DNA from: a virus
Virus record (IMG/VR): IMGVR_UViG_3300010354_000809
Coordinates: 1 to 21,518 of that record
Direction: 5' to 3' (one strand)
Length of the DNA: 21,518 nt
Under the pieces are notes generated by a model, which made no database searches, was not told the origin of the DNA, and saw only the letters and a list, made by a program, of their open reading frames with translations. Position numbers and translations under genes: made by a program. Below, in pieces: positions 3,010 through 21,518 of the stretch (its first letter is position 1; the number at the start of each line of letters is the position of its first letter).

Positions 3010-4047
3010 TTAGAGCATTACTTTTCTGTTTGCTAATTTATATGGTAGGTCGTAGCGTTTAGAATTATAATGCCAGTTAGCCTCAATAAAAACTTCTGCC
3101 ATCTTAGTTTCCCATTGCGCCATAGTAACATCAGATACGGTGAAAGGACATATCTGTTTATACTTGTCTATAACAATGAATGAAAACTCTATAGTCCAAT
3201 CTGCTAAGCTGAGCTGATTAAGATGTATAAACTCCCACTCTACCATATGTTTGTACATTGCTGCCTGAAGCCACAGGTTGTAGAATTCTACAGTCTCTGG
3301 AAACTCTATAAGGGTTTTGCTAGTAGTCTTTACATCGTTGATGTAAATAATCTTTAGCGCATTATCTATCCTTATATTATCCACAATACCTTTTACTCCA
3401 AAGGGATAAGCCTTCAGATCTATTTGTATCGGTGTCTCGTTTAGCACTTGTACGTTTTGAGTTGGTTCTAGGCCTAACATTCGAGAGACTTGTTGATTTG
3501 CTCTTACTAATTCTGCTACCTCTGTACAATACTCATAGGTAGGAATATCTATGATATCCTTTCCATCTTTCCTTAATAGGAACTGGAAGTAATCCTTATT
3601 AGCATCAGTAAGGATCTTCTCCAATCGTTGTTCATCGGTCTTGAGTGATTGGTGTAGATTGATTTCCTTGAGCACGTCAAGAATCTTCTGACTATGATCT
3701 TCTAAATATGGAGACGGAATCCCTGTACTACCGGTCTCGGTTGTTACGGGCTCCATATTTATGTAATGTTCATAGACAGCATCTACAACCTTCTTTGGGT
3801 TGTCGCTTGGCATATTACTAGGTAACAGAAGAAACTTCTCATCAAAAGCCTGTGGTTCTAACACTAGACAATGAATGAGCTTCCCCTGCAATAATGCAGG
3901 AGAAGTTTCTTCTTCACGTTGTTTAAGGATATAATCCCTATAGAACAACTGTGGTGAATACATCAGTTTGTTTAGACTAGAGTAGCTGAAATAAAACTTA
4001 TCAGCATAGAACTCAGTCTCCATTTGTAGATTCTCAGTTTTCGTCAT
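3010..4047 (-). CDS. RecE-like PD-(D/E)XK exonuclease
   Basis: Predicted nuclease of the RecE/Cas4-like PD-(D/E)XK superfamily (DUF3799-type), 345 aa. Visible motifs in order: YSSLNKLMYSPQLFYRDYI (22-40); the G-x-x-x-H signature in LLQGKLIHCLVLEP (G55, H59); a D in VKGIVDNIRID (D223); the D-x-K core in YINDVKTTSK (D238, K240); and Q-x-x-x-Y in QAAMYKH (Q261, Y265). Such enzymes resect double-stranded ends and usually work with a single-strand annealing protein; the Sak4-like ATPase at 12435-13196 is a possible partner. The first ATG (4047) overlaps the upstream gene by 14 bases, and a second in-frame ATG at 4023 would avoid the overlap. Superfamily is secure; the exact substrate is inferred. 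Confidence 0.88.
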   Translation of the reverse strand: MTKTENLQMETEFYADKFYFSYSSLNKLMYSPQLFYRDYILKQREEETSPALLQGKLIHCLVLEPQAFDEKFLLLPSNMPSDNPKKVVDAVYEHYINMEPVTTETGSTGIPSPYLEDHSQKILDVLKEINLHQSLKTDEQRLEKILTDANKDYFQFLLRKDGKDIIDIPTYEYCTEVAELVRANQQVSRMLGLEPTQNVQVLNETPIQIDLKAYPFGVKGIVDNIRIDNALKIIYINDVKTTSKTLIEFPETVEFYNLWLQAAMYKHMVEWEFIHLNQLSLADWTIEFSFIVIDKYKQICPFTVSDVTMAQWETKMAEVFIEANWHYNSKRYDLPYKLANRKVML

Positions 4048-5227
4048 CTTCTGTTTCTGTTAATACATCCTCTTCTTCATCATCATAATCATCATCTTTC
4101 TCATCATCTTCTTTCGGAATGCTGTTGAGTAGTTCGTCTGGAATTGGAGGTAGAGTTGGATCAAACTTGCGATCCCCTTTAGCGGCAGCTAGTAATAGCT
4201 TTGGAGATCGTGAGACTTGAGTGACGCTAAAGTACTCATTACCTAGGGAACTTTCAAAATCTTCTTTAGATAATTTTTCAACATAGTCTAAGTGCTCTGT
4301 TGTTAACAGATCTCTTGCTTCCAGTTCACCTATTACGTCTTCCATATCGCTGAGTCTAAAACCTCTTCTTAAATTGAAGAAGTCCATCATGCTTTTGAAG
4401 TTCACATGTTTGGTTTCTGGTCTATCCCAGATCGCATAATGGTGATCTTTAAACAGCATGAATAGATAAAGCGCTGATCTTTCATAATCTACGTTTGCCA
4501 TTAACTCTAACGCTAGTACGTGGTTGTTTTTATCTTGAGAGTCAAACATCTTTGAAGTTTCGTTGAACATATCCTCAGTCATTACATTGTTCATGTTGAT
4601 GATCGTTAGAAGATCTTTCTGATGCACAAGAGTTTTGTTAAGCTCTAGTATACTGTCAAAGTTATTTATAGCGCTTTCTTCTGTTATCCACGTACTTGTT
4701 CTAAAGAACTTTCTGCCGGTACCTTTAAGCGCAGTCTCTATTTGATTTTTAGAAGACCATGATTCTACATATACATAATCTAAATTGTTTTCATCACGAA
4801 GAAAATCTATAAGCTCTGCTATTTGCGGAACAGCTTTATAATCAACATGGCGCTTTTGATATAACAATCCTATAGCTTCCTCAAGATCTTTAGAATGTAT
4901 ACAGTTATACTCAAAATCTTTTTGAGCAACTTCTTTCTCTGTTTCGTTAGAAAAGATTATAACACTAGCATTCTGAGGAGTTTTGCTAATGCTCATTCCT
5001 GTTACTTCGCATAGTTGTTTTACTTTAAATCTAGGCACGGTACACCCTGGCATAAAGTAAATCTTATCTGTTTGTTTAAATAAATAAGCGGTATCAGATA
5101 GCAAAACAGATTGTATAGCACCATCCTTGATGCTATCTCCGTGAGCTGCCAGTCTTGTTTCCCAGTGAAGATAATCATCTCCCACTTCTGTTATGACTAC
5201 TTGTTTCTTAAATACTTCTTTTATCAT
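4034..5227 (-). CDS. Unknown 397-aa protein with HEAT-like motif and acidic C-terminal tail
   Basis: I do not recognise the whole protein. It has no membrane segment. About 25 C-terminal residues are almost all Asp and Glu (for example DDDYDDEEEDVLTETEDDEN at the end), as seen in DNA mimics, histone-like partners and SSB tails. A central helical segment near residues 226-248 (KMFDSQDKNNHVLALELM, then ANVDY) closely matches residues 16-38 of the 142-aa protein at 7936-8364: K, M, S, D, N, V, A, V and D are identical at aligned positions. It starts right after the terminator that closes the MoxR gene and runs into the RecE-like nuclease gene with a 14-base overlap. A role as an adaptor for the MoxR/VWA module or for recombination is inference only. 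Confidence 0.75.
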   Translation of the reverse strand: MIKEVFKKQVVITEVGDDYLHWETRLAAHGDSIKDGAIQSVLLSDTAYLFKQTDKIYFMPGCTVPRFKVKQLCEVTGMSISKTPQNASVIIFSNETEKEVAQKDFEYNCIHSKDLEEAIGLLYQKRHVDYKAVPQIAELIDFLRDENNLDYVYVESWSSKNQIETALKGTGRKFFRTSTWITEESAINNFDSILELNKTLVHQKDLLTIINMNNVMTEDMFNETSKMFDSQDKNNHVLALELMANVDYERSALYLFMLFKDHHYAIWDRPETKHVNFKSMMDFFNLRRGFRLSDMEDVIGELEARDLLTTEHLDYVEKLSKEDFESSLGNEYFSVTQVSRSPKLLLAAAKGDRKFDPTLPPIPDELLNSIPKEDDEKDDDYDDEEEDVLTETEDDEN

Positions 5228-5231
5228 TGTT

Positions 5232-5261
5232 TTAAAATAAGAAAGCCCGGTTGCCCGGGCT
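5232..5261 (-). terminator. Strong intrinsic terminator after the MoxR gene
   Basis: On the minus strand AGCCCGG (5261-5255), the tetraloop GCAA (a GNRA loop) and CCGGGCT (5250-5244) form a perfect 7-bp GC-rich stem. It is followed by TTTCTTATTTT. It lies in the 42-base gap between the MoxR-like gene and the 397-aa gene, separating two transcription units. Confidence 0.85.
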
Positions 5262-5269
5262 CTCAGTTA

Positions 5270-6751
5270 TTACTTAGTGGCCATCTTTACTACCTCTGGA
5301 TTGGTGAGCATCTTCTGAAACTTCTGTTTGTTTCCGTTGATCACCCTCTTTACAATATGATACTTGATATCATTAGTAAAGGTATCCTCATCTGTAGAAA
5401 GACGAATCAAACGATCAATCTCTTTCTGAGAGATCGGATTCTTTTCAGCATAGCTTATGCTAAAGTTGATAATCCTTGTAGCCATGATGCTTGCGATATC
5501 AGCACGATAGTTAGCATCGCGACCGATTGTATTACGTAACTCACCTATGATATAGGCTTCGCTCTCATGCAACAGGATATCTTTAGGACTAAGCATCTTG
5601 TCCATTTTGTTATTGATGAACATGGTGAATAGACTAGAGAACTCAGGTCCAACAGAACCTTCGCCAATCATCTGAATCAATGGTAAACTCTTATCGAAGT
5701 TTTCCAAAGAGCTGATACTATTGAAGAAGTTTGTAATAGACCTAGCATTAATCTTGTTGGTTACAAGCTCCGGATGCATAAGCATGAAGTTGATACAACG
5801 AGAGTCAATGTTAGCAGACTCTGCCCACTTAGCCCACACATCTACATCATACTTTAGATTCACGCTAATGAACCTGGTACGCTGAGCTGTGTCAATAGAG
5901 TTTACAAGATAGTCTCCATTATCTGGATTCGCAGTAAGAACAATGTGCCAGTCTTGCGGAAGCTTCCATGAGATATACTCTTGACGATCAACGAGTTCCA
6001 TGACAGCTTGGATAAACCTGATGTCTGCACGATTCCAGTCGTCAAGGATTAGGATACCACCGCCTTGCTTGTCTGCTATCCATTGTGGAGGACAGTAGGA
6101 CATGCGCTTCTCACCAGTGAATTCATATCCGCGTTTGATATATTCCTGTACGGCATGCTCATCTATCCACAAGCATTCACCATAAGAATCACCAACGAAC
6201 GCAAGTACATCTGCTGTTTCTTCTACATCCGCAGCTTCTACTTCTACCTCTTCCTTCACAATCTTCGTCACCGGAACTTCCTTCTCTACTATGATTGGAG
6301 TCTTAACTTCCACCTCTTTAGTATGGAACTTACCTCCCTCAAACACCTGCTTCTTAACCATCTTCACCTCGAACTCTTCAACCATTTGTTTCTCCATCAC
6401 GGTTACTTCTTTCTCCACAACGGTCTTATCTTTCTTCTTCGCTTTCTTCTTGGGTGCCTGAGCCACAGGAGCTTGTTGCTCTCCTTGCTTACACATTTGG
6501 AACTGACGGATCGGGAAACCTACAAGGTCACCTAACTCTTCTATCTGTGCTAAGTTTAACTTTACAAAGTTTAAATCTAGCTCACTAGCTAGTTGCAAGA
6601 TAGAACTTGTCTTACCGATACCGGACTCACCGATAACCTCAACAGAGATTGGATTCTTACCCTCGCTTTGGATGAAGCGATTATTACTTACAATATGCTT
6701 AAGGAAATCCTTAAGCTCGTCGATGTTTAGATTTACTTGGTTGCTGCTCAT
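5270..6751 (-). CDS. MoxR-type AAA+ ATPase with a charged insertion
   Basis: AAA+ ATPase of the MoxR/AAA_5 type, 493 aa. Visible: Walker A GESGIGKT (41-48), pore-loop-like DLVGF (75-79), Walker B ILILDDWNRA (233-242), sensor-1 Asn in VLTANPDNGD (N275) and an arginine-finger segment TAQRTRF (R291/R293). Between the pore loop and the next core strand sits an inserted stretch of about 90 residues (about 90-182). It is made of KKKAKKKDK and repeated V-E-K-E-V-like units, low in complexity and probably an extended coiled or beta-like arm. MoxR proteins act as chaperone-like ATPases that remodel or insert cofactors into partners, usually with a VWA protein. That partner is encoded immediately upstream: its TAA stop (6755-6753) is separated by one base from this ATG (6751). 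A strong terminator follows. Family is secure, the target unknown. Confidence 0.92.
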   Translation of the reverse strand: MSSNQVNLNIDELKDFLKHIVSNNRFIQSEGKNPISVEVIGESGIGKTSSILQLASELDLNFVKLNLAQIEELGDLVGFPIRQFQMCKQGEQQAPVAQAPKKKAKKKDKTVVEKEVTVMEKQMVEEFEVKMVKKQVFEGGKFHTKEVEVKTPIIVEKEVPVTKIVKEEVEVEAADVEETADVLAFVGDSYGECLWIDEHAVQEYIKRGYEFTGEKRMSYCPPQWIADKQGGGILILDDWNRADIRFIQAVMELVDRQEYISWKLPQDWHIVLTANPDNGDYLVNSIDTAQRTRFISVNLKYDVDVWAKWAESANIDSRCINFMLMHPELVTNKINARSITNFFNSISSLENFDKSLPLIQMIGEGSVGPEFSSLFTMFINNKMDKMLSPKDILLHESEAYIIGELRNTIGRDANYRADIASIMATRIINFSISYAEKNPISQKEIDRLIRLSTDEDTFTNDIKYHIVKRVINGNKQKFQKMLTNPEVVKMATK

Positions 6752-6752
6752 T

Positions 6753-7952
6753 TTAGTTTAATTGTATTGTTACTCCTGGTAAATGATCACACTTGTTAGA
6801 AGTGGACGATAGAGCCCAGAGCACTCTACCTTTTGGTTGCGGAGGCGCCGGTGCCTCACCATCTGTCAAATAGATTAGACAGCTATACTTACGAGTATTC
6901 TCATTGAAATACTCTATTACGGGATCAAAGCTAGTCCCTCCTCTCCCATAGATTTTATATTCATCTCTAGGATTGTAAGGATGCATCTTTTGGATCGCCG
7001 CATCTGCGTGTGCGATAGTTATGTCGATGCCTGTCTTGTGGATATGGTTTATCTCCTGCATGAATTCTACCAACTCGTCAGGGCTTACAGATCCTGAAGT
7101 ATCGATTGCTACTAGGACATGCTTGCGTTGCTTTATCTTTAGAGCTGGATTGTCTTCATACCTCTTGTTATATTTACGGCGAGTCTTCTTAGTAATAACC
7201 TTTACAGATCCCCCGCTAAACATACGTAGATATCCCCGCCAGTCAAACTTTGGTGGCTCTTGAAGATCTATCTTATCTAGAATACTAGCTAGCTCTCCAG
7301 GAATAGTACCTCTGCTTTTCTCTACTTGGTCTTTAAGTTCCTTTAGAATATGCTTGGTCTGATTCTCTATTAGCTTCTTAGTAGCTTCATCTAGTTCTTC
7401 TTGATCTCCCCACGCAGAATGGTCTGGTACTTTTATTTCTCCTTTGCCAGGCATTACACAAGTACCTTGTCCGTTTTCAGCTGCCTCAATCATAGCGTTG
7501 AGGTTAGGACAGTTACCTTTCTTTTTACCTTGACCTAGCTTTTCATAGTAGTACTCAGTACCCATCTTAGGTTCGAGATTCAGTTCAGGATACAGATCAA
7601 GAGTCTGTCCACCTGCGGGTAGATTATCTTCCTTGATGTACTGATTGATTTCTAAGTCCATGGCAATATTTGCTAGTAGCTTATCTTCCATATGACCATA
7701 GTTTGTCAAATGAAAGAAAGCTATATGCAATAGCTCATGTTTTAGTAGACCCTTCCTGTGCGCTAGGATAAGCCTTTCCCAAAACTCCTCATTTATAAGG
7801 AGCTTATAGTTTATTCCGCTCATTGTTACACCAGCAGTAGGAATCTGATTGTTCCACTGCTTATTAAGCATGATGAGAAATAAACCATAGAATGGTTCTT
7901 CCAGCATCAGATCTTTGCTAGCTTTTGCTAGACTTTCAGCGTGTTTGCTCAT
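6753..7952 (-). CDS. VWA-domain protein with HExxH metallopeptidase-like domain (DUF2201 type)
   Basis: 399 aa. The N-terminal half has a zinc-peptidase signature KHELLHIAFFH (H72, E73, H76) followed by NIAMDLEIN (about 95-103), the usual layout of DUF2201-type predicted metallopeptidases. The C-terminal half is a VWA-like domain with an intact MIDAS metal site: D284-T-S286-G-S288 in VAIDTSGSVS, T340 in GGTSFDP and D364 in YLTDGE. The family pairs with MoxR ATPases, and here the MoxR gene follows after a single base. The gene overlaps the upstream 142-aa gene by 17 bases. Protease activity is suggested by the intact HExxH but is unproven for this family. Function in the phage (protein remodelling, host take-over, virion or replisome assembly, counter-defence) cannot be read from the sequence. 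Confidence 0.9.
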   Translation of the reverse strand: MSKHAESLAKASKDLMLEEPFYGLFLIMLNKQWNNQIPTAGVTMSGINYKLLINEEFWERLILAHRKGLLKHELLHIAFFHLTNYGHMEDKLLANIAMDLEINQYIKEDNLPAGGQTLDLYPELNLEPKMGTEYYYEKLGQGKKKGNCPNLNAMIEAAENGQGTCVMPGKGEIKVPDHSAWGDQEELDEATKKLIENQTKHILKELKDQVEKSRGTIPGELASILDKIDLQEPPKFDWRGYLRMFSGGSVKVITKKTRRKYNKRYEDNPALKIKQRKHVLVAIDTSGSVSPDELVEFMQEINHIHKTGIDITIAHADAAIQKMHPYNPRDEYKIYGRGGTSFDPVIEYFNENTRKYSCLIYLTDGEAPAPPQPKGRVLWALSSTSNKCDHLPGVTIQLN

Positions 7953-8364
7953 AGTATTTCTTTTTGATTGTTATGTCTAAGGTTTCTATAAAGTCGAACC
8001 CATACTCAGATAGATCTTTTAGTAAGACTAGGGATACCGCTTTAAGAAAAATGTTTATATCTTTCTCTCCGCAGTTCTTTTGTTTAAGAACGTCTAGGAT
8101 TTCTCTAAAGGTTAAGCTGTGGTTCAGATTCTTCTCATCAACCTTTCTAACCTTGTTTATTTTGTTGTATAGATTAGGAGCGATTTCTTTCCATAGATCT
8201 TTGTCTTTAGTAGCTTTATAGATCAATAAGATCATCGCTATGTTTTTGTTGAAGTCTACAGAATCAAGAACGTTTATCGCCATCACCCTATTCTCTACAT
8301 CACTAGACAGTATCATCTTTTCTAATGATTCATAATCTAAATCTATGTTTACTTTTTTTGCCAT
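7936..8364 (-). CDS. Unknown 142-aa helical protein with HEAT-like motif, linked to the MoxR/VWA pair
   Basis: Soluble, Lys-rich, apparently all-helical protein without a recognised family. Residues 16-38 (KMILSSDVENRVMAI, then NVLDSVDF) resemble one HEAT-like helical hairpin. They match segments in the 397-aa protein (4034-5227), the 90-aa protein (19675-19947) and, more weakly, the 74-aa protein (20473-20697). It overlaps the VWA gene by 17 bases and the preceding 75-aa gene by 35 bases, so it is almost certainly cotranslated with the VWA/MoxR pair. It may be an adaptor or substrate of that pair (inference). The start is the ATG at 8364, directly followed by an A7 run. Confidence 0.75.
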   Translation of the reverse strand: MAKKVNIDLDYESLEKMILSSDVENRVMAINVLDSVDFNKNIAMILLIYKATKDKDLWKEIAPNLYNKINKVRKVDEKNLNHSLTFREILDVLKQKNCGEKDINIFLKAVSLVLLKDLSEYGFDFIETLDITIKKKYYEQTR

Positions 8365-8557
8365 TAGTTTTTGTTTTTAAACCTTCATCATCTAACCAGT
8401 CTAGCTGAAACAATACATTGTTTAATTCCATTACAGTTATAAATGCAGGATTATTAATATCAATATTATCTAGTTCATATGTTTTTTCTAAGAGCTTGAT
8501 AGCTTTATTAACCGAAACTCTTACTCTTTCTTTGATTTGTTCTACTCTGTCTTCCAT
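8330..8557 (-). CDS. Small helical protein of unknown function, 75 aa
   Basis: The first 40 residues form a charged amphipathic helix (EDRVEQIKERVRVSVNKAIK), and the last 15 are basic (KTKTNGKKSKHRFRL). The start ATG at 8557 shares its A with the TAA stop of the DUF6915 gene (TAATG), and the end overlaps the 142-aa gene by 35 bases. The gene spacing supports it as real; no family is recognised. The basic tail lies wholly in the overlap with the next gene and may carry little function. Confidence 0.65.
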   Translation of the reverse strand: MEDRVEQIKERVRVSVNKAIKLLEKTYELDNIDINNPAFITVMELNNVLFQLDWLDDEGLKTKTNGKKSKHRFRL

Positions 8558-8898
8558 TAGTCTTCTAGTTTAGTTGTTCTTCGCATCCAGTCTTTAGGAG
8601 CTTTAAAATTGTCTAGCCATTCCTTAGCTGATGGTAAGTGACCATTACAATCCTCCTTGACATGTTGCTCACCCACGTACCGGGTGTATACTATTTTGCC
8701 ATCACTGTTGGTAAAGCTTGCACCAAATATTTTCTCACACTCAAAGATACCCTCTGAGTGATGCCTAAACATTCTGTGTGCGCTATGTCCAACCCAGGCT
8801 TTGGTTTCATCAAACCACTCGTGATATTTTAGATAGTCAGATATCTGACCTCCCCATTTTTTCACTGAGCTTTTGGCATGCTGTATCGGGTGTGCCAT
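8557..8898 (-). CDS. DUF6915 family protein, 113 aa
   Basis: Conserved small protein with the hallmarks of DUF6915: N-terminus MAHPIQHAKSSVKKWGG, then HEWFDETKAWVGHSAHR, FRHHSEGIFECEKIFG and GEQHVKEDCNGHLPSAKEWL. The many conserved His, Asp and Glu residues suggest a metal-binding fold, but no function is established to my knowledge. I chose the ATG at 8898, where the family begins, not the TTG at 8904. The first 62 bases overlap the 3' end of the HNH gene in another frame. A truncated, diverged second copy of the N-terminus lies at 9535-9627 on the other side of the HNH gene. Confidence 0.85.
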   Translation of the reverse strand: MAHPIQHAKSSVKKWGGQISDYLKYHEWFDETKAWVGHSAHRMFRHHSEGIFECEKIFGASFTNSDGKIVYTRYVGEQHVKEDCNGHLPSAKEWLDNFKAPKDWMRRTTKLED

Positions 8899-9487
8899 TT
8901 TCAATAAAAGTTTTTAGTTTTGTTATCCATTTTTTAAAATCTGACAGTGTTAAATCACTCTTAGCTCTGTTACATATTTTACAACAGGGTACTACATTGT
9001 TTATAGTATAGCCTTTTTTAGAGTCTACTCTATCAATGCCGTTATAAAATACAGGTACACCAGATCTAATTTTATCTGTACCAGGATGCTTTAACTGATA
9101 AACTTGAGAAGGAGGAGTCTTGCAATAGTAACAGTCTAATCCGATTAAAGACTTAAAAGTTTCATAGCTTAACTCAAAAGAAAGTCCTCTACGAACAGCA
9201 TGTTTTTTATAAACATACATTATAGCTTTGTGACCAACCTCTTTATCTTTTTCTTTTTCTACACCTCTGCAAGGTTTTAAACCACAAGAAGTACTAGTAC
9301 CATTTCTAATATTATTTAGACACACGCGTTTTTGCTTACCACATTTACATCGTGCTTCAATGTACCTTCTTCCTGTTCTACTGTTTTTTTCTAGATCTTG
9401 AATATAGATCCAGTCAGTTAATTCTCCTTTAGTTGTGTACAGTTTATCATTTAAAGAAAACTGTAGAGCTGTTTTAAACTTTCCCAT
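8837..9487 (-). CDS. HNH homing-type endonuclease
   Basis: 216 aa. The N-terminal part has a zinc-ribbon-like DNA-binding region (CKCGKQKRVCLNNIRNG, then TSTSCG, about 47-69) common in phage homing nucleases. The nuclease domain has CYYC (119-122), the NGIDRVDSKKGYTINN core (149-164) and PCCKICNRAK (167-176), a typical HNH layout with structural cysteines and IDRVD in place of a catalytic-His core. The natural protein probably ends near WITKLKTFIENG (about 198). The last 18 or so residues are read out of frame through the start of the DUF6915 gene. It sits between a broken and an intact DUF6915 gene, which suggests it arrived as a selfish insertion. Codon use looks as AT-rich as its neighbours. 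Confidence 0.9.
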   Translation of the reverse strand: MGKFKTALQFSLNDKLYTTKGELTDWIYIQDLEKNSRTGRRYIEARCKCGKQKRVCLNNIRNGTSTSCGLKPCRGVEKEKDKEVGHKAIMYVYKKHAVRRGLSFELSYETFKSLIGLDCYYCKTPPSQVYQLKHPGTDKIRSGVPVFYNGIDRVDSKKGYTINNVVPCCKICNRAKSDLTLSDFKKWITKLKTFIENGTPDTACQKLSEKMGRSDI

Positions 9488-16295: not shown

Positions 16296-16611
16296 ATGTT
16301 ACGGCATGACGGAACTTCGAGAGATTGCCATAAGCCTCGAAGAACTAGATGCGTGTGATACTATTCTTAGCACTACTAAGATTATGCTAGCCAATAGAGA
16401 TTCTATGATTGTACTTAAAGACTCTGAGATATCCAAACAAAGTTTGTCTCTGATGTTAAAAGATAAAATCATAGGTGTAAAAGAAAACGAGATAGAAAAA
16501 TTGACTGAAGATCTAAACAAAGCAAACACCCACAAAAAGTTACTGACTATAGGGTGGGGATCTACTTCATTAGTGTTTGTCGGAATGATTTTCTACCTAG
16601 CAATCCATTAG
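16201..16611 (+). CDS. Secreted/membrane partner overlapping the Rz-like gene, 136 aa
   Basis: The frame starts with GTG at 16201 inside the Rz-like gene (95-base overlap). The GTG gives a textbook signal peptide, MKKLSLFILKLMLLSLTVSF, with a likely cut after SFA (about 21). The next ATG (16234) would lose the basic n-region, so GTG is preferred. The mature part has DTVRCYGMTELREIAISLEE and a helical region with KDSEISKQSLSLMLKDKIIG. A C-terminal membrane helix follows (LLTIGWGSTSLVFVGMIFYL, about 114-133). There is no lipobox, so it is not a classical Rz1 lipoprotein. It ends in a 4-base overlap of stop codons with the convergent helicase gene. Confidence 0.6.
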   Translation: MKKLSLFILKLMLLSLTVSFAKSQNVSADTVRCYGMTELREIAISLEELDACDTILSTTKIMLANRDSMIVLKDSEISKQSLSLMLKDKIIGVKENEIEKLTEDLNKANTHKKLLTIGWGSTSLVFVGMIFYLAIH

Positions 16612-18233
16612 TTTTTCCTTACAACGTATACCGTATCGGTTGCCCGTGAATAGCTGGTATACTTGATCCGGTTACGCTCTAAAGTTTTATGGTTAGCATC
16701 AATGTCGTTCTCGAATATCATGACATGTTTATAGGTTGAACCCTGCGATTTGTGCGCGGTTATAGAGTACGCATAACCTACATCGGCTGTCCACTTTTGT
16801 AAGTTGTAAAAGCATATCCAATCCCTAGCTTGCCTGGCTCTTAAAGCATTCATTCTGGCTTTTTCTACAAGCGCATTGTAAGCCTTCTCACTTTTCTCAT
16901 GAACAACATATATGTTATCGTAGTAAGTGCGGTCTTCTGTCGGTGAATAATAGGATACATAAAGTTGATATGCTTCTAAGTTCATTGCGTATCCGCATTC
17001 GTGCACGTATCTTATAGTAGTATCTATATCTATAACCTCTAACTCTTCCGATGTAGTAAACAATACTTTCCAATATTCGTTTACAAAACCATTCTTTTCA
17101 GATTCTTGTCTTTCAAATATAGGTTTCTTTGCTACAAGCTTTTCTCCTACAACAAACCGTGGAGGATTCTTTCCGTAAAGCATCTCTCTTACTACACTGT
17201 TTACATACTCTACGGTGTTATTCTTCCAGGCTATAGTTCTCATGTAATCGGAATCTTCTTTGAACTCCTCACACTTAAATCTTTGTTCTAAGATATCTCT
17301 TATCTTCTGTCTATCTTTCTCAGGATCTAAATGGATTATACCATGACCATTACTGTTTAATGATGTAACAATCTTAGGTATAGGTTGCTTCATGAGAAGA
17401 TTGTTTCTTAGTTCCAACGAAGCTTTGACTATAGGATTGTCACCTTTCTGCCTCATGATTTCGCTAAGCTCTATGAGTTTAAAGTTATAGCCTTGATTGC
17501 TTCTAAATGGAATAGAGTCTGTCTTCTTTACCGGTGGAATCTGAGCGGGATCTCCCATGAATATGATTTTTATATGCTTAGAATACTTAAGTATATCTTT
17601 GCATAACTTATCATCTAGCATGGATACCTCATCTACAATAAGATAATTGTACTTGCTAAGCTCACTTTTATTTAAAGCATCTGGTAAAAAGATTTGTTCG
17701 CCGTCGTCTGTTACCCTTTCTTTCATACCTAAGAGCTTGTGGATTGTACTATAAGTAAGCTTGGATGCTGAGTTAAATATATCTTCGAAGATATATCCCT
17801 GCATTGCGTCGCCTACACTATGGAACAATACCTTAACAGCCTTATTGGTTGGAGCACCGCAAGCTATCATGCATCTTTCATCAGTAAGACCTATGTACTG
17901 TATCAATCTCTTTACAAGAAATGTTTTGCCAGTACCAGCATAGCCTCTTAGAACTACTGCATCTTCTACAGGATTATCTAGAAAATCTATCATGTCGTTA
18001 AAAGCTGCGGTCTGCCCTTCGTTCAAACCTATAGCCAGCTTTTCCTTTATGAAGTTTTCCATTATCCTTTTAACAATGGTAAAGTTTTCTTTGTCCGGAG
18101 ACTTTAGCATGGTTAGCAATGACTCGTGCTCATCAAGATTTATTATCTCTTTCTGAAGCATCTCATCTACTCGCTTCATCCACATTTTAGTTCTCCAGTC
18201 TAGAAAACCGCTACCACTTGATGTCTTTGCCAT
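16608..18233 (-). CDS. SF1 DNA helicase (Dda/RecD-like)
   Basis: 541-aa 5'-3' type SF1B helicase. Motifs in order: Q74 upstream of the core, Walker A GYAGTGKT (97-104), motif Ia APTNKAV (127-133), Walker B VDEVSM (200-205), motif III GDPAQIPPV (227-235), motif IV region EIMRQKGDN (258-266), motif V ITAHKSQGSTY (491-501) and motif VI YTSYSRATD (525-533). The size and motif set match phage Dda and short RecD2 proteins, which clear obstacles at forks and help initiation and recombination. The start overlaps the UDG gene by 23 bases, and the 3' end overlaps the convergent spanin-like gene. Confidence 0.93.
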   Translation of the reverse strand: MAKTSSGSGFLDWRTKMWMKRVDEMLQKEIINLDEHESLLTMLKSPDKENFTIVKRIMENFIKEKLAIGLNEGQTAAFNDMIDFLDNPVEDAVVLRGYAGTGKTFLVKRLIQYIGLTDERCMIACGAPTNKAVKVLFHSVGDAMQGYIFEDIFNSASKLTYSTIHKLLGMKERVTDDGEQIFLPDALNKSELSKYNYLIVDEVSMLDDKLCKDILKYSKHIKIIFMGDPAQIPPVKKTDSIPFRSNQGYNFKLIELSEIMRQKGDNPIVKASLELRNNLLMKQPIPKIVTSLNSNGHGIIHLDPEKDRQKIRDILEQRFKCEEFKEDSDYMRTIAWKNNTVEYVNSVVREMLYGKNPPRFVVGEKLVAKKPIFERQESEKNGFVNEYWKVLFTTSEELEVIDIDTTIRYVHECGYAMNLEAYQLYVSYYSPTEDRTYYDNIYVVHEKSEKAYNALVEKARMNALRARQARDWICFYNLQKWTADVGYAYSITAHKSQGSTYKHVMIFENDIDANHKTLERNRIKYTSYSRATDTVYVVRKN

Positions 18234-19288: not shown

Positions 19289-19691
19289 TATTCACAGTAT
19301 CACCTAGTTCTATTATAGTCTGTATAGTCAAAGCTAGCTCCTCGACAGAGGCATCGCCGAATGACTTACATACTAGGAACTTTTCTCCCTGAATGGTTTT
19401 CTCTACGCATAACCCAGACATCTTCTTTACTTCAAGTTTGAGATCCTCAAAGCTATAACCCGTTTCCCTAGCAAGTTCTCTGATACATGCATGTATCTTT
19501 GCTATCTGCGGAAGGGTGCCTGTATCTGCATTAGATTCTATGAATATCTCAGCACGCTGATTGTGCTCCATAGTTTCTAGGAATAGCTTATACTTATTAG
19601 CGGTACCTTCCGTAGCCGGATACAAAGAACACTTACCGTTCTCTATCTTAGCTACAAACTGACCATGAAATATGTTATTTTGTTGTTTCAT
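19275..19691 (-). CDS. NinB-like recombination protein (tentative), 138 aa
   Basis: The order of features follows phage NinB/Orf: a beta-rich N-terminus, a helical stretch QIAKIHACIRELARETGYSF where NinB has its Q-N-x-x-x-W-x-x-L helix, then EDLKLEVKKMSGL. It closes with KSFGDASVEELALTIQTIIE, where NinB ends with a Ser-x-x-E-x-x-x-x-I helix. NinB proteins bind ssDNA and modulate RecFOR-type recombination. The likeness is in pattern only, so the label is tentative. The gene overlaps the 90-aa gene by 17 bases. Confidence 0.6.
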   Translation of the reverse strand: MKQQNNIFHGQFVAKIENGKCSLYPATEGTANKYKLFLETMEHNQRAEIFIESNADTGTLPQIAKIHACIRELARETGYSFEDLKLEVKKMSGLCVEKTIQGEKFLVCKSFGDASVEELALTIQTIIELGDTVNINFR

Positions 19692-19947
19692 TAAATGTAG
19701 AGTTTACGTGCGCACTGATTATTTTTTCGGCCATGTATCTGTTTTCCTCATCGATGGAGTTTAGCATCTTAAACAAACTTATCATTTCATTATGAGTGAT
19801 CAAACCTGTTTGTTTTATAATTAAAATCTCTATCGCCTTCTTCATATTCTGAATTTGGTTAGACATAGATTCTAGTTTTTTTTGTGTATCATAGTTTTCT
19901 ATGTATATTACATTTGAACCGTCGCTGCTTCTACTCACCATAACCAT
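19675..19947 (-). CDS. Unknown 90-aa protein with HEAT-like motif
   Basis: The N-terminus has YIENYDTQKKLESMSNQIQN, a coiled-coil-like region. Residues 59-77 (FKMLNSIDEENRYMAEKII) share K-M-x-x-S-x-D-x-E-N-R-x-M-A with the 142-aa protein at 7936-8364, nine identities in 18 positions, and a related run in the 74-aa protein at 20473-20697. Two ATGs (19947 and 19941) are close together; both overlap the upstream gene. No function known. Confidence 0.65.
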   Translation of the reverse strand: MVMVSRSSDGSNVIYIENYDTQKKLESMSNQIQNMKKAIEILIIKQTGLITHNEMISLFKMLNSIDEENRYMAEKIISAHVNSTFNETTK

Positions 19948-20372: not shown

Positions 20373-20476
20373 GATTTTCCGTATTCTCTCTGCTCTTCAT
20401 CTTTAGGGTCTTGACATTGGCATGTGCAACCAGTAAGAAACAATGAGAGGACTACTAATATAATAAATCTTTTCAT
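20369..20476 (-). CDS. Tiny lipoprotein, 35 aa
   Basis: Short gene fitted exactly between two others by ATGA overlaps at both ends (20476 and 20369-20372). It encodes a type II signal peptide, MKRFIILVVLSLFLTGC, with lipobox L14-T-G-C17. A mature part of only 19 residues follows, starting CTCQCQDPKDEEQ. The lipobox, the basic start and the perfect gene packing make it convincing despite its size. Possible roles are an o-spanin (Rz1-like) or a superinfection-exclusion lipoprotein; the sequence cannot decide. Confidence 0.75.
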   Translation of the reverse strand: MKRFIILVVLSLFLTGCTCQCQDPKDEEQREYGKS

Positions 20477-20697
20477 GATATACCAAGTTTATCTTTTAGT
20501 ATGTAAGCAGCTAGTTCTCGATCTTCTTCTGTACTGTTTATCATTTTAGCAAGAGTGCTTTCCTCTTCTTTGTTAACAAGTTCTTGTACAGAACAATCGT
20601 TTAGGTATTGGAATAGCCTCCACTTTCTAATCATTTCCCAGTTAGTTTCTGGATCATGATCAGGAGGAATGTTTTTTAGTAAGTCGTTTAAGTCCAT
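20473..20697 (-). CDS. Unknown 74-aa acidic protein
   Basis: The ATG at 20697 shares its A with the TAA stop of the SPL-like gene (TAATG), a better start than the TTG at 20724. It begins MDLNDLLKNIPPDHDPETNW and ends with a helix LAKMINSTEEDRELAAYIL. That helix is a one-residue-shorter version of the motif in the 90-aa protein two genes downstream (KMLNSIDEENRYMAEKII). The two may be paralogues or share a binding motif. Function unknown. Confidence 0.65.
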   Translation of the reverse strand: MDLNDLLKNIPPDHDPETNWEMIRKWRLFQYLNDCSVQELVNKEEESTLAKMINSTEEDRELAAYILKDKLGIS

Positions 20698-21518
20698 TAG
20701 AATATGTATCTTATTTTGTTCCAAGGTATAATCTCATCATGAAGAGCGGTCCATTCTTCTATGTATCCCGCTTTTAGATCGTGCTTATACCTTATGTTTT
20801 CTCCACCAAACTCAGAAGTCTTGGACTCTTGTACTGCTGGAGTCCACAATAAATCTTCTCCTGGCAAGTTATGTTTTAAGTTATAGTCATGCTTTTGTTC
20901 ATTATGTGTCAGGAATATGACCTCAGCTTTGACTTTATCTTTAAACTTAACGTGCCTATCAAGCTCCTCAAATAGTACTCTATAGTTTTGTAGCCATCCT
21001 TTGGTTACTATTACCGGACTGAAGTTCACATGAACATCATAGCCCGATCCTATTAACCAGTTGATAGCTTTCATTCTAGAGAATATTGTTGAGGTGTTTG
21101 GTTCTAGCTGATCAGCATAGAACTGCGGCATCAGACTAAGTCTGACCCTTATCTTTTCATGCGGGTCGTAGCTCATTAGATCTGTGTTCACATGTTTAGT
21201 AGCAAAACTGCCCATAGCTTTATCATGAGTCTTAAAGAATCCAAAGATTCTTTTCCAGTCATGATACTTTAGATGTAGAGCAAAGTCCTCGTTACATGAT
21301 ATATCGTACGTTGTGTACACATCATGTGTCTGATTAGGTTTCTCTACCTCAGCAAAAGCGCAGTGGCTGTTTATCTCTGTAAGTATATCTCCTACATTCC
21401 TTGCTATAGATAAACCTTCCGGCTTATGCCTTTTCATATAGCAATATGTACAGTTATATAAGCACCCATGACCAAAGCTAGGACTAATAAAGTCCGTGCT
21501 TCTACCGCTAGGTCTTAT
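20697..21518 (-). CDS. Radical-SAM protein resembling spore photoproduct lyase (5' end outside window)
   Basis: The frame is open to the right edge; 273 residues are visible. The radical-SAM signature C-x3-C-x2-C is seen as GHGCLYNCTYCYMKRH (Cys at 19, 23 and 26 from the edge), preceded by RPSGRSTDFISPSFG. The rest has barrel-like strands (IRVRLSLMP, YDVHVNFSPVIV, KAEVIFLTHNEQKHDYN). SPL-family proteins repair UV thymine lesions by a radical reaction; phages of Bacteroidota often carry SPL-like genes of unproven substrate. It heads a run of small genes, joined by TAATG to the next one. Radical-SAM class is secure, SPL function is inferred. Confidence 0.85.
   Translation of the reverse strand: MRPSGRSTDFISPSFGHGCLYNCTYCYMKRHKPEGLSIARNVGDILTEINSHCAFAEVEKPNQTHDVYTTYDISCNEDFALHLKYHDWKRIFGFFKTHDKAMGSFATKHVNTDLMSYDPHEKIRVRLSLMPQFYADQLEPNTSTIFSRMKAINWLIGSGYDVHVNFSPVIVTKGWLQNYRVLFEELDRHVKFKDKVKAEVIFLTHNEQKHDYNLKHNLPGEDLLWTPAVQESKTSEFGGENIRYKHDLKAGYIEEWTALHDEIIPWNKIRYIF

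Follow-up and report, generated by a model that had tools for sequence, protein, structure and literature searches.

Here we describe a four-gene cassette on the minus strand of a DNA record from an uncultured virus (positions 4034-8364 of the window, by which we mean the whole 21.5-kb stretch of DNA that was analysed) encoding a small protein of 142 residues, a DUF2201 metallopeptidase-VWA protein, a MoxR-type AAA+ ATPase and a 397-residue protein with a predicted BRCT fold. Our preferred reading, a tentative one to which we give slightly less than an even chance, is that these genes specify an AAA+ remodeller linked to replication, with dedicated partners that bind to it by way of a short conserved element, the SDEN hairpin, probably at the MIDAS of the VWA protein. 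Phage MoxR/VWA pairs are already published from jumbo phages, archaeal viruses and cyanophages; what is new here is the BRCT gene in the unit, the shared hairpin and the occurrence of counterparts on bacterial chromosomes. A preliminary description of this DNA missed these three features, including the dispersal of the hairpin over several proteins, as well as the published phage pairs of MoxR and VWA-metallopeptidase. The features on which the argument draws are as follows.

4034..5227, minus strand: BRCT plus ARM/HEAT-like protein (397 aa), fourth cassette member, from model, fold, shared domain and co-occurrence
4475..4585, minus strand: SDEN hairpin in the BRCT protein, residues 215-251 (hairpin HMM)
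4589..5083, minus strand: BRCT-like domain with an insertion, residues 49-213 (VIA-align to 2le0)
5241..5264, minus strand: intrinsic terminator between the ATPase and BRCT genes, a 10-bp stem and then a T-rich tail
5270..6751, minus strand: MoxR-type AAA+ ATPase (493 aa), from PHROG 1297, motifs and its place 3' of VWA in relatives
6194..6472, minus strand: K/E-rich (K/E/V) insertion of ~90 residues in the ATPase, ~residues 94-186 (alignment)
6753..7952, minus strand: DUF2201 protein (399 aa), N-terminal metallopeptidase-like and C-terminal VWA domains (Pfam, PHROG 1314)
7089..7103, minus strand: MIDAS DxSxS motif, DTSGS, residues 284-288, then GRGGT and TDG, all intact
7725..7739, minus strand: HExxH motif, HELLH, residues 72-76, then the invariant H81 and D99 (motif, alignment)
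7936..8364, minus strand: small ARM/HEAT-like hairpin protein (142 aa), from conserved position, model and fold neighbours
8242..8346, minus strand: SDEN hairpin in the 142-aa protein, residues 7-41 (hairpin HMM)
18054..18146, minus strand: SDEN hairpin near the N-terminus (residues 30-60) of the Dda-like helicase encoded at 16608-18233 (hairpin HMM)
19714..19800, minus strand: SDEN hairpin, residues 50-78, in a 90-aa open reading frame at 19675-19947 (hairpin HMM)
20494..20574, minus strand: weaker SDEN hairpin (i-E 2e-7), residues 51-77, in an 83-aa open reading frame at 20473-20724

The VWA and ATPase genes are separated by a single base and the gene for the 142-aa protein overlaps the start of the VWA gene by 17 bases, so that the preliminary account of an adjacent ATPase and VWA protein with intact MIDAS and HExxH motifs, preceded by an overlapping helical protein, is borne out by the open reading frames, the motifs and the structural model. 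That account also had a terminator closing the unit after the ATPase gene. The terminator is real and lies 3' of this gene, but it does not mark the end of the unit, as the BRCT gene beyond it belongs to the same unit on comparative evidence. Directly upstream of the cassette the window encodes a DUF6915 protein (8557-8904, E=2e-40), which keeps this position in many relatives. A search for RNA families found none in the window.

The comparative evidence comes from IMG/VR, which was scanned with two queries, the VWA protein and the 397-aa protein, the best 80 matches being kept per scan; the co-occurrence counts therefore describe this phage lineage, not all phages. Among these best matches there are 119 non-redundant viral loci with a VWA gene. 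In each of the 74 loci with full context (again from the best 80 matches per scan) VWA and MoxR genes are followed by a relative of the 397-aa protein of 340-480 aa, and in 67 of the 74 a gene of 100-160 aa lies just before VWA. The seven full-context loci that lack the small gene (L006, L009, L011, L058, L080, L150 and L162) retain its domain within the BRCT protein. Of 78 loci collected through the 397-aa protein on its own, 76 carried both VWA and MoxR, and the other two end at a contig edge. This co-occurrence in relatives supports the earlier proposal of a protein-remodelling machine that is conserved and has a third component. Relatives without the VWA and 142-aa genes would have spoken against that proposal, but no full-context locus lacks VWA and only the seven named lack the small gene. 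The third component is real, but it is not the lone added partner first suggested, its domain being common to several proteins of the window.

The MoxR label of the ATPase rests on its match to PHROG 1297 ('ATPase', E=1e-31), its motifs, its VWA partner and midasin, which provides its best solved relatives, because the Pfam AAA models score below their curated cut-offs (AAA_3, 16.5 bits against 27; AAA_5, 15.6 against 22). Walker A (GESGIGKT), Walker B (ILILDD), sensor 1 (TANP) and the arginine finger (AQRTRF) are all recognisable, and in relatives, too, the ATPase gene lies immediately downstream of VWA. The K/E-rich insertion lies just after a DLVGFP segment and is missing from the other six aligned relatives; ATPases of similar length (495-528 aa) are encoded in L017, L018, L019, L021 and L099. 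In several relatives open reading frames of 249-266 aa break up the MoxR gene. Group I introns, which suggest that the gene is important, were identified in it in five loci (L005, L039, L049, L128 and L133) and occupy at least two different sites. Reading frames like those of the MoxR introns (~250 aa) are also found between VWA and MoxR elsewhere among the loci, and in one contig (L132) the two genes are fused into a single frame of 786 aa.

Both Pfam domains of the DUF2201 family are present in the VWA protein (DUF2201_N, 2.8e-16; DUF2201, 1.8e-16), together with HExxH and MIDAS, and it matches PHROG 1314 with E=2.8e-62. This family is named 'HNH endonuclease', whereas the members we examined (among them PBS1 gp214, LUZ7 gp39 and the protein at 6753-7952 of the window) are DUF2201 metallopeptidase-VWA proteins, and the wrong name has spread across phage records. 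Among the 119 loci from the best 80 matches per scan, MIDAS is found in all VWA copies and HExxH in all but that of L108, where the frame is split before the motif. HExxH is probably a real metal site. In three bacterial relatives its catalytic glutamate is a glutamine while the other metal ligands and MIDAS are kept. Cleavage, one of the functions initially envisaged, is therefore not the core shared by all versions of the system, and for the phage proteins, which retain the glutamate, peptidase activity is a candidate function. The same two observations bear in opposite directions on the idea that the pair remodels and clips structural proteins during virion assembly or maturation: HExxH is intact in all full-length phage copies, but the loss of the glutamate in bacteria argues against clipping. 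The idea itself has precedent in two papers, in one of which a role in virion assembly is proposed for the MoxR and metallopeptidase-vWA pair of group 2.2 jumbo phages (Iyer et al., 2021, PMC7824862), while the other shows in part that the p618/p892 MoxR-VWA pair of Acidianus two-tailed virus (ATV) acts in tail development (PMC4124505).

An AlphaFold model of the 142-aa protein (pLDDT 90) is all-helical, with ARM/HEAT repeats as its fold neighbours at modest scores (Z up to 6.3). The model of the 397-aa protein (pLDDT 88) has an alpha/beta domain and, after it, helices. Its fold list is headed by BRCT structures (Z 6.8-6.4 over 74-79 residues, below the Z 8 comfort line of the tool), the best alignment being to 2le0 (VIA-align, Z 6.8, 79 aligned residues, rmsd 3.0), and Pfam BRCT gives a weak match in four of 53 members of the family; on this model the protein is assigned a BRCT fold. 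ARM/HEAT repeats also lead its fold list, with modest Z of about 5-6, and the profiles of the 142-aa and 397-aa families align over ~54 residues (hhalign, E=7.8e-8) and can be described by one common HMM. By profile comparison, then, the ARM/HEAT-like domain of the 397-aa protein is homologous to the 142-aa protein. Neither the 142-aa protein nor the BRCT protein of L011 had a significant match in a phage collection, and Foldseek with the 142-aa and BRCT proteins returned no PDB match at E<=0.001 and only four phage proteins from its viral library.

The region common to these proteins contains the SDEN hairpin, a segment of ~30 residues with the consensus L..ML.S.D.EN...A and the core S-x-D-x-E/D-N. 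An HMM of the hairpin, run on the window and six related sequences, matched 31 proteins, of which the window encodes five; among the carriers, the Dda-like helicase has the hairpin in two phages, that of the window and its homologue in G004. The HMM had no matches in reversed or shuffled open reading frames or in crAss001 and PBS1 stretches, and no hairpin was found near the MoxR/VWA pairs of other phages. The acidic residue of the hairpin is frequent but varies: of 57 small proteins, 49 have D. In the NorQD system a finger of the VWA protein enters the pore of the MoxR ring, and the target contributes an acidic residue to which MIDAS binds (PMC9976466; PMC13036017). By analogy, the S-x-D-x-E/D-N core is a natural candidate for what the phage VWA protein holds.

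The hairpin could instead be a generic ARM/HEAT unit, with VWA and MoxR working alone and the small and BRCT genes being neighbours only through operon architecture. The ARM/HEAT fold matches fit this explanation, as do the stable order of replication genes across the lineage and the retention of VWA/MoxR pairs without hairpin proteins by other phages. We nevertheless consider it unlikely, since the hairpin is sequence-specific and missing from the controls, and the association is met again, in unrelated contexts, on the chromosomes of bacteria, as described below.

The replication neighbourhood noted at the outset is real: the window encodes a DNA polymerase B, a PD-(D/E)XK nuclease, a Holliday resolvase, a primase, Sak4, DnaB, the Dda-like helicase and a UDG-like protein, and the cassette lies on the same strand as the replication genes around it. 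Such a neighbourhood alone can arise from gene clustering. Together with the BRCT domain in the partners and the hairpin in a helicase, this same-strand position argues against virion assembly as the role of the pair, which we regard as quite unlikely. The window also encodes a spore photoproduct lyase-like protein (20697-21437; Pfam SPL, E=9e-15), a radical SAM enzyme of DNA photolesion repair.

The primase, nuclease, DnaB and u202 genes of the window match genes of crAss001, in a similar order. Structural genes are absent from the window, but longer relatives carry them, with strong crAss matches in G016 and G017 (portal, E 1e-122 to 1e-124; capsid, 1e-57 to 1e-58) and distant ones in the remaining longer relatives (portal, 1e-13 to 1e-29; capsid, 1e-6 to 1e-10). 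The crAss001-like gene order and the crAss-like portal and capsid of the relatives suggest that the lineage lies within the crAss-like phages or is a sister of them, and the phage itself, through these relatives, appears to be distantly crAss-like. Between its primase and PD-(D/E)XK nuclease genes crAss001 has gp76-gp79 (L179:31395-35805) in place of the MoxR/VWA cassette; by annotation and sequence we take these genes to be a JAB/ThiF/ubiquitin-like cassette. The 'metalloprotease' gp77 was considered as a relative of the VWA protein and rejected, as it had no HMM match; from its sequence and neighbours it is presumably JAB/E1/ubiquitin-like.

MoxR/VWA-type pairs are also found in N4-like LUZ7, PBS1, AD45 and S-TIM5, and those of LUZ7, D520 and MTATph1 likewise lie in a replication neighbourhood. 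As in the cassette, the MoxR gene of the jumbo-phage, LUZ7, PBS1, AD45 and S-TIM5 pairs adjoins a VWA gene with an N-terminal metallopeptidase-like domain, often close to helicase and DNA polymerase genes. These pairs differ in falling on another branch of the VWA tree, in having 'DE' in Walker B where it is readable, and in that no BRCT or hairpin partner was found nearby. Neither partner is mentioned in the accessible text of PMC7824862, PMC8651126 or PMC4124505, and a literature search for BRCT with MoxR/VWA gave no relevant report among the hits listed. Viral MoxR/VWA pairs have been termed 'cobST' in archaeal and other tailed viruses and proposed (PMC8651126) to help host CobN and so raise cobalamin production. 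A weak, short match of the ATPase to PHROG 249 is in keeping with this, but the VWA protein is a DUF2201 protein with no CobT match in Pfam and its linked partners are BRCT and hairpin proteins, which makes such a role here very improbable.

The cassette shares with NorQ-NorD, RavA-ViaA and CbbQ-CbbO an AAA+ ring and a VWA adaptor whose MIDAS would hold the target, and differs from them in the N-terminal domains of the VWA proteins and in the targets. With the MoxR-vWA-VMAP ternary systems proposed to act in biological conflicts (Kaur et al., 2020, PMC7159879) it shares a MoxR-VWA core and a conserved third component. The preliminary description raised the possibility of counter-defence or host takeover, with a host protein as the substrate for remodelling or cleavage. 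The third component of the cassette is, however, the BRCT/hairpin protein, with no VMAP, effector or DGR; Pfam and PADLOC matched no VMAP or other conflict partner among the cassette proteins, all PADLOC matches being at noise level, and the cassette is found in essentially all relatives with replication genes and not patchily. We judge counter-defence improbable.

A genome scan with the phage BRCT proteins had revealed no relative, whereas one with the VWA profile matched Ferrimonas kyonanensis and Saprospiria. In Ferrimonas, two proteins of ~930-950 aa, encoded divergently from VWA-MoxR, contain LRRs and a BRCT domain directly followed by the hairpin; among 248 genomes of this order only Ferrimonas has VWA or BRCT-hairpin. 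With the Ferrimonas BRCT-hairpin region as the query, matches were obtained in 14 of 100 Saprospiraceae genomes; the VWA protein is present in 33 of the 100, which include 13 of the 14 (hypergeometric P=9e-7, ignoring phylogeny). A search with the hairpin only, which is insensitive, gave two clear Saprospiraceae genomes, both with VWA, and a marginal one without it. One Saprospiraceae genome (G351) has VWA, MoxR and BRCT/hairpin genes in the phage order, with four bases between the last two; G405 shares this order, though with a gap. In G088, from a Bacteroidia sample, two BRCT-hairpin proteins, one of them with WGR, TPR and LRR, are encoded upstream of MoxR-VWA, and an Aureispira MAG (G023) has an expansion to nine to eleven BRCT-hairpin matches. 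We know of no earlier description of LRR-BRCT-hairpin proteins beside VWA/MoxR in Saprospiraceae or Ferrimonas.

In the VWA tree the phage cassette (100/100) groups with the bacterial proteins (96/91), to the exclusion of the N4-like, PBS1, AD45 and S-TIM5 pairs, and Walker B reads 'DD' in the cassette and the bacterial group. The bacterial loci thus resemble the phage cassette in the VWA-MoxR pair, the BRCT domain followed by the hairpin, this Walker B and, in one genome, the same order; they differ in having large proteins with LRRs (also WGR/TPR) and no small 142-aa gene, and in some cases in the loss of the HExxH glutamate. The phage and bacterial BRCT-hairpin profiles align weakly (E=0.002) and only over the hairpin, which does not establish common descent of the proteins as a whole.

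According to the replication-linked reading that we favour, the MoxR protein would form an ATP-driven ring on which the DUF2201 protein sits as an adaptor, as in NorQD. The 142-aa and BRCT proteins would dock on this machine through the SDEN hairpin, other carriers such as the Dda-like helicase probably docking likewise, and the acidic residue of the hairpin could serve as sixth ligand of the MIDAS metal. ATP turnover would then load, remodel or remove the docked proteins at replication or recombination complexes. The replication neighbourhood, like the BRCT and WGR domains, points to complexes of DNA replication or repair. The sequences themselves show which genes are present, that their motifs are intact, that their linkage is deep, that the hairpin is shared and that bacteria have related loci; from these we infer physical docking, MIDAS as its site, replication proteins as clients and the direction of remodelling. 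A bolder version, in which the hairpin is a portable docking tag that recruits a set of phage proteins including the replication helicase and the BRCT protein, its acid completes MIDAS, and the same system, with LRR-BRCT proteins, operates in some marine bacteria, is possible, if doubtful.

Many phages carry MoxR-VWA pairs without a known target, and databases call the VWA protein an 'HNH endonuclease'. The cassette described here offers candidate partners, namely two hairpin proteins, the BRCT protein and the Dda-like helicase, and with these, a motif that can be mutated and counterparts in bacteria, the targets of phage MoxR machines become directly testable.
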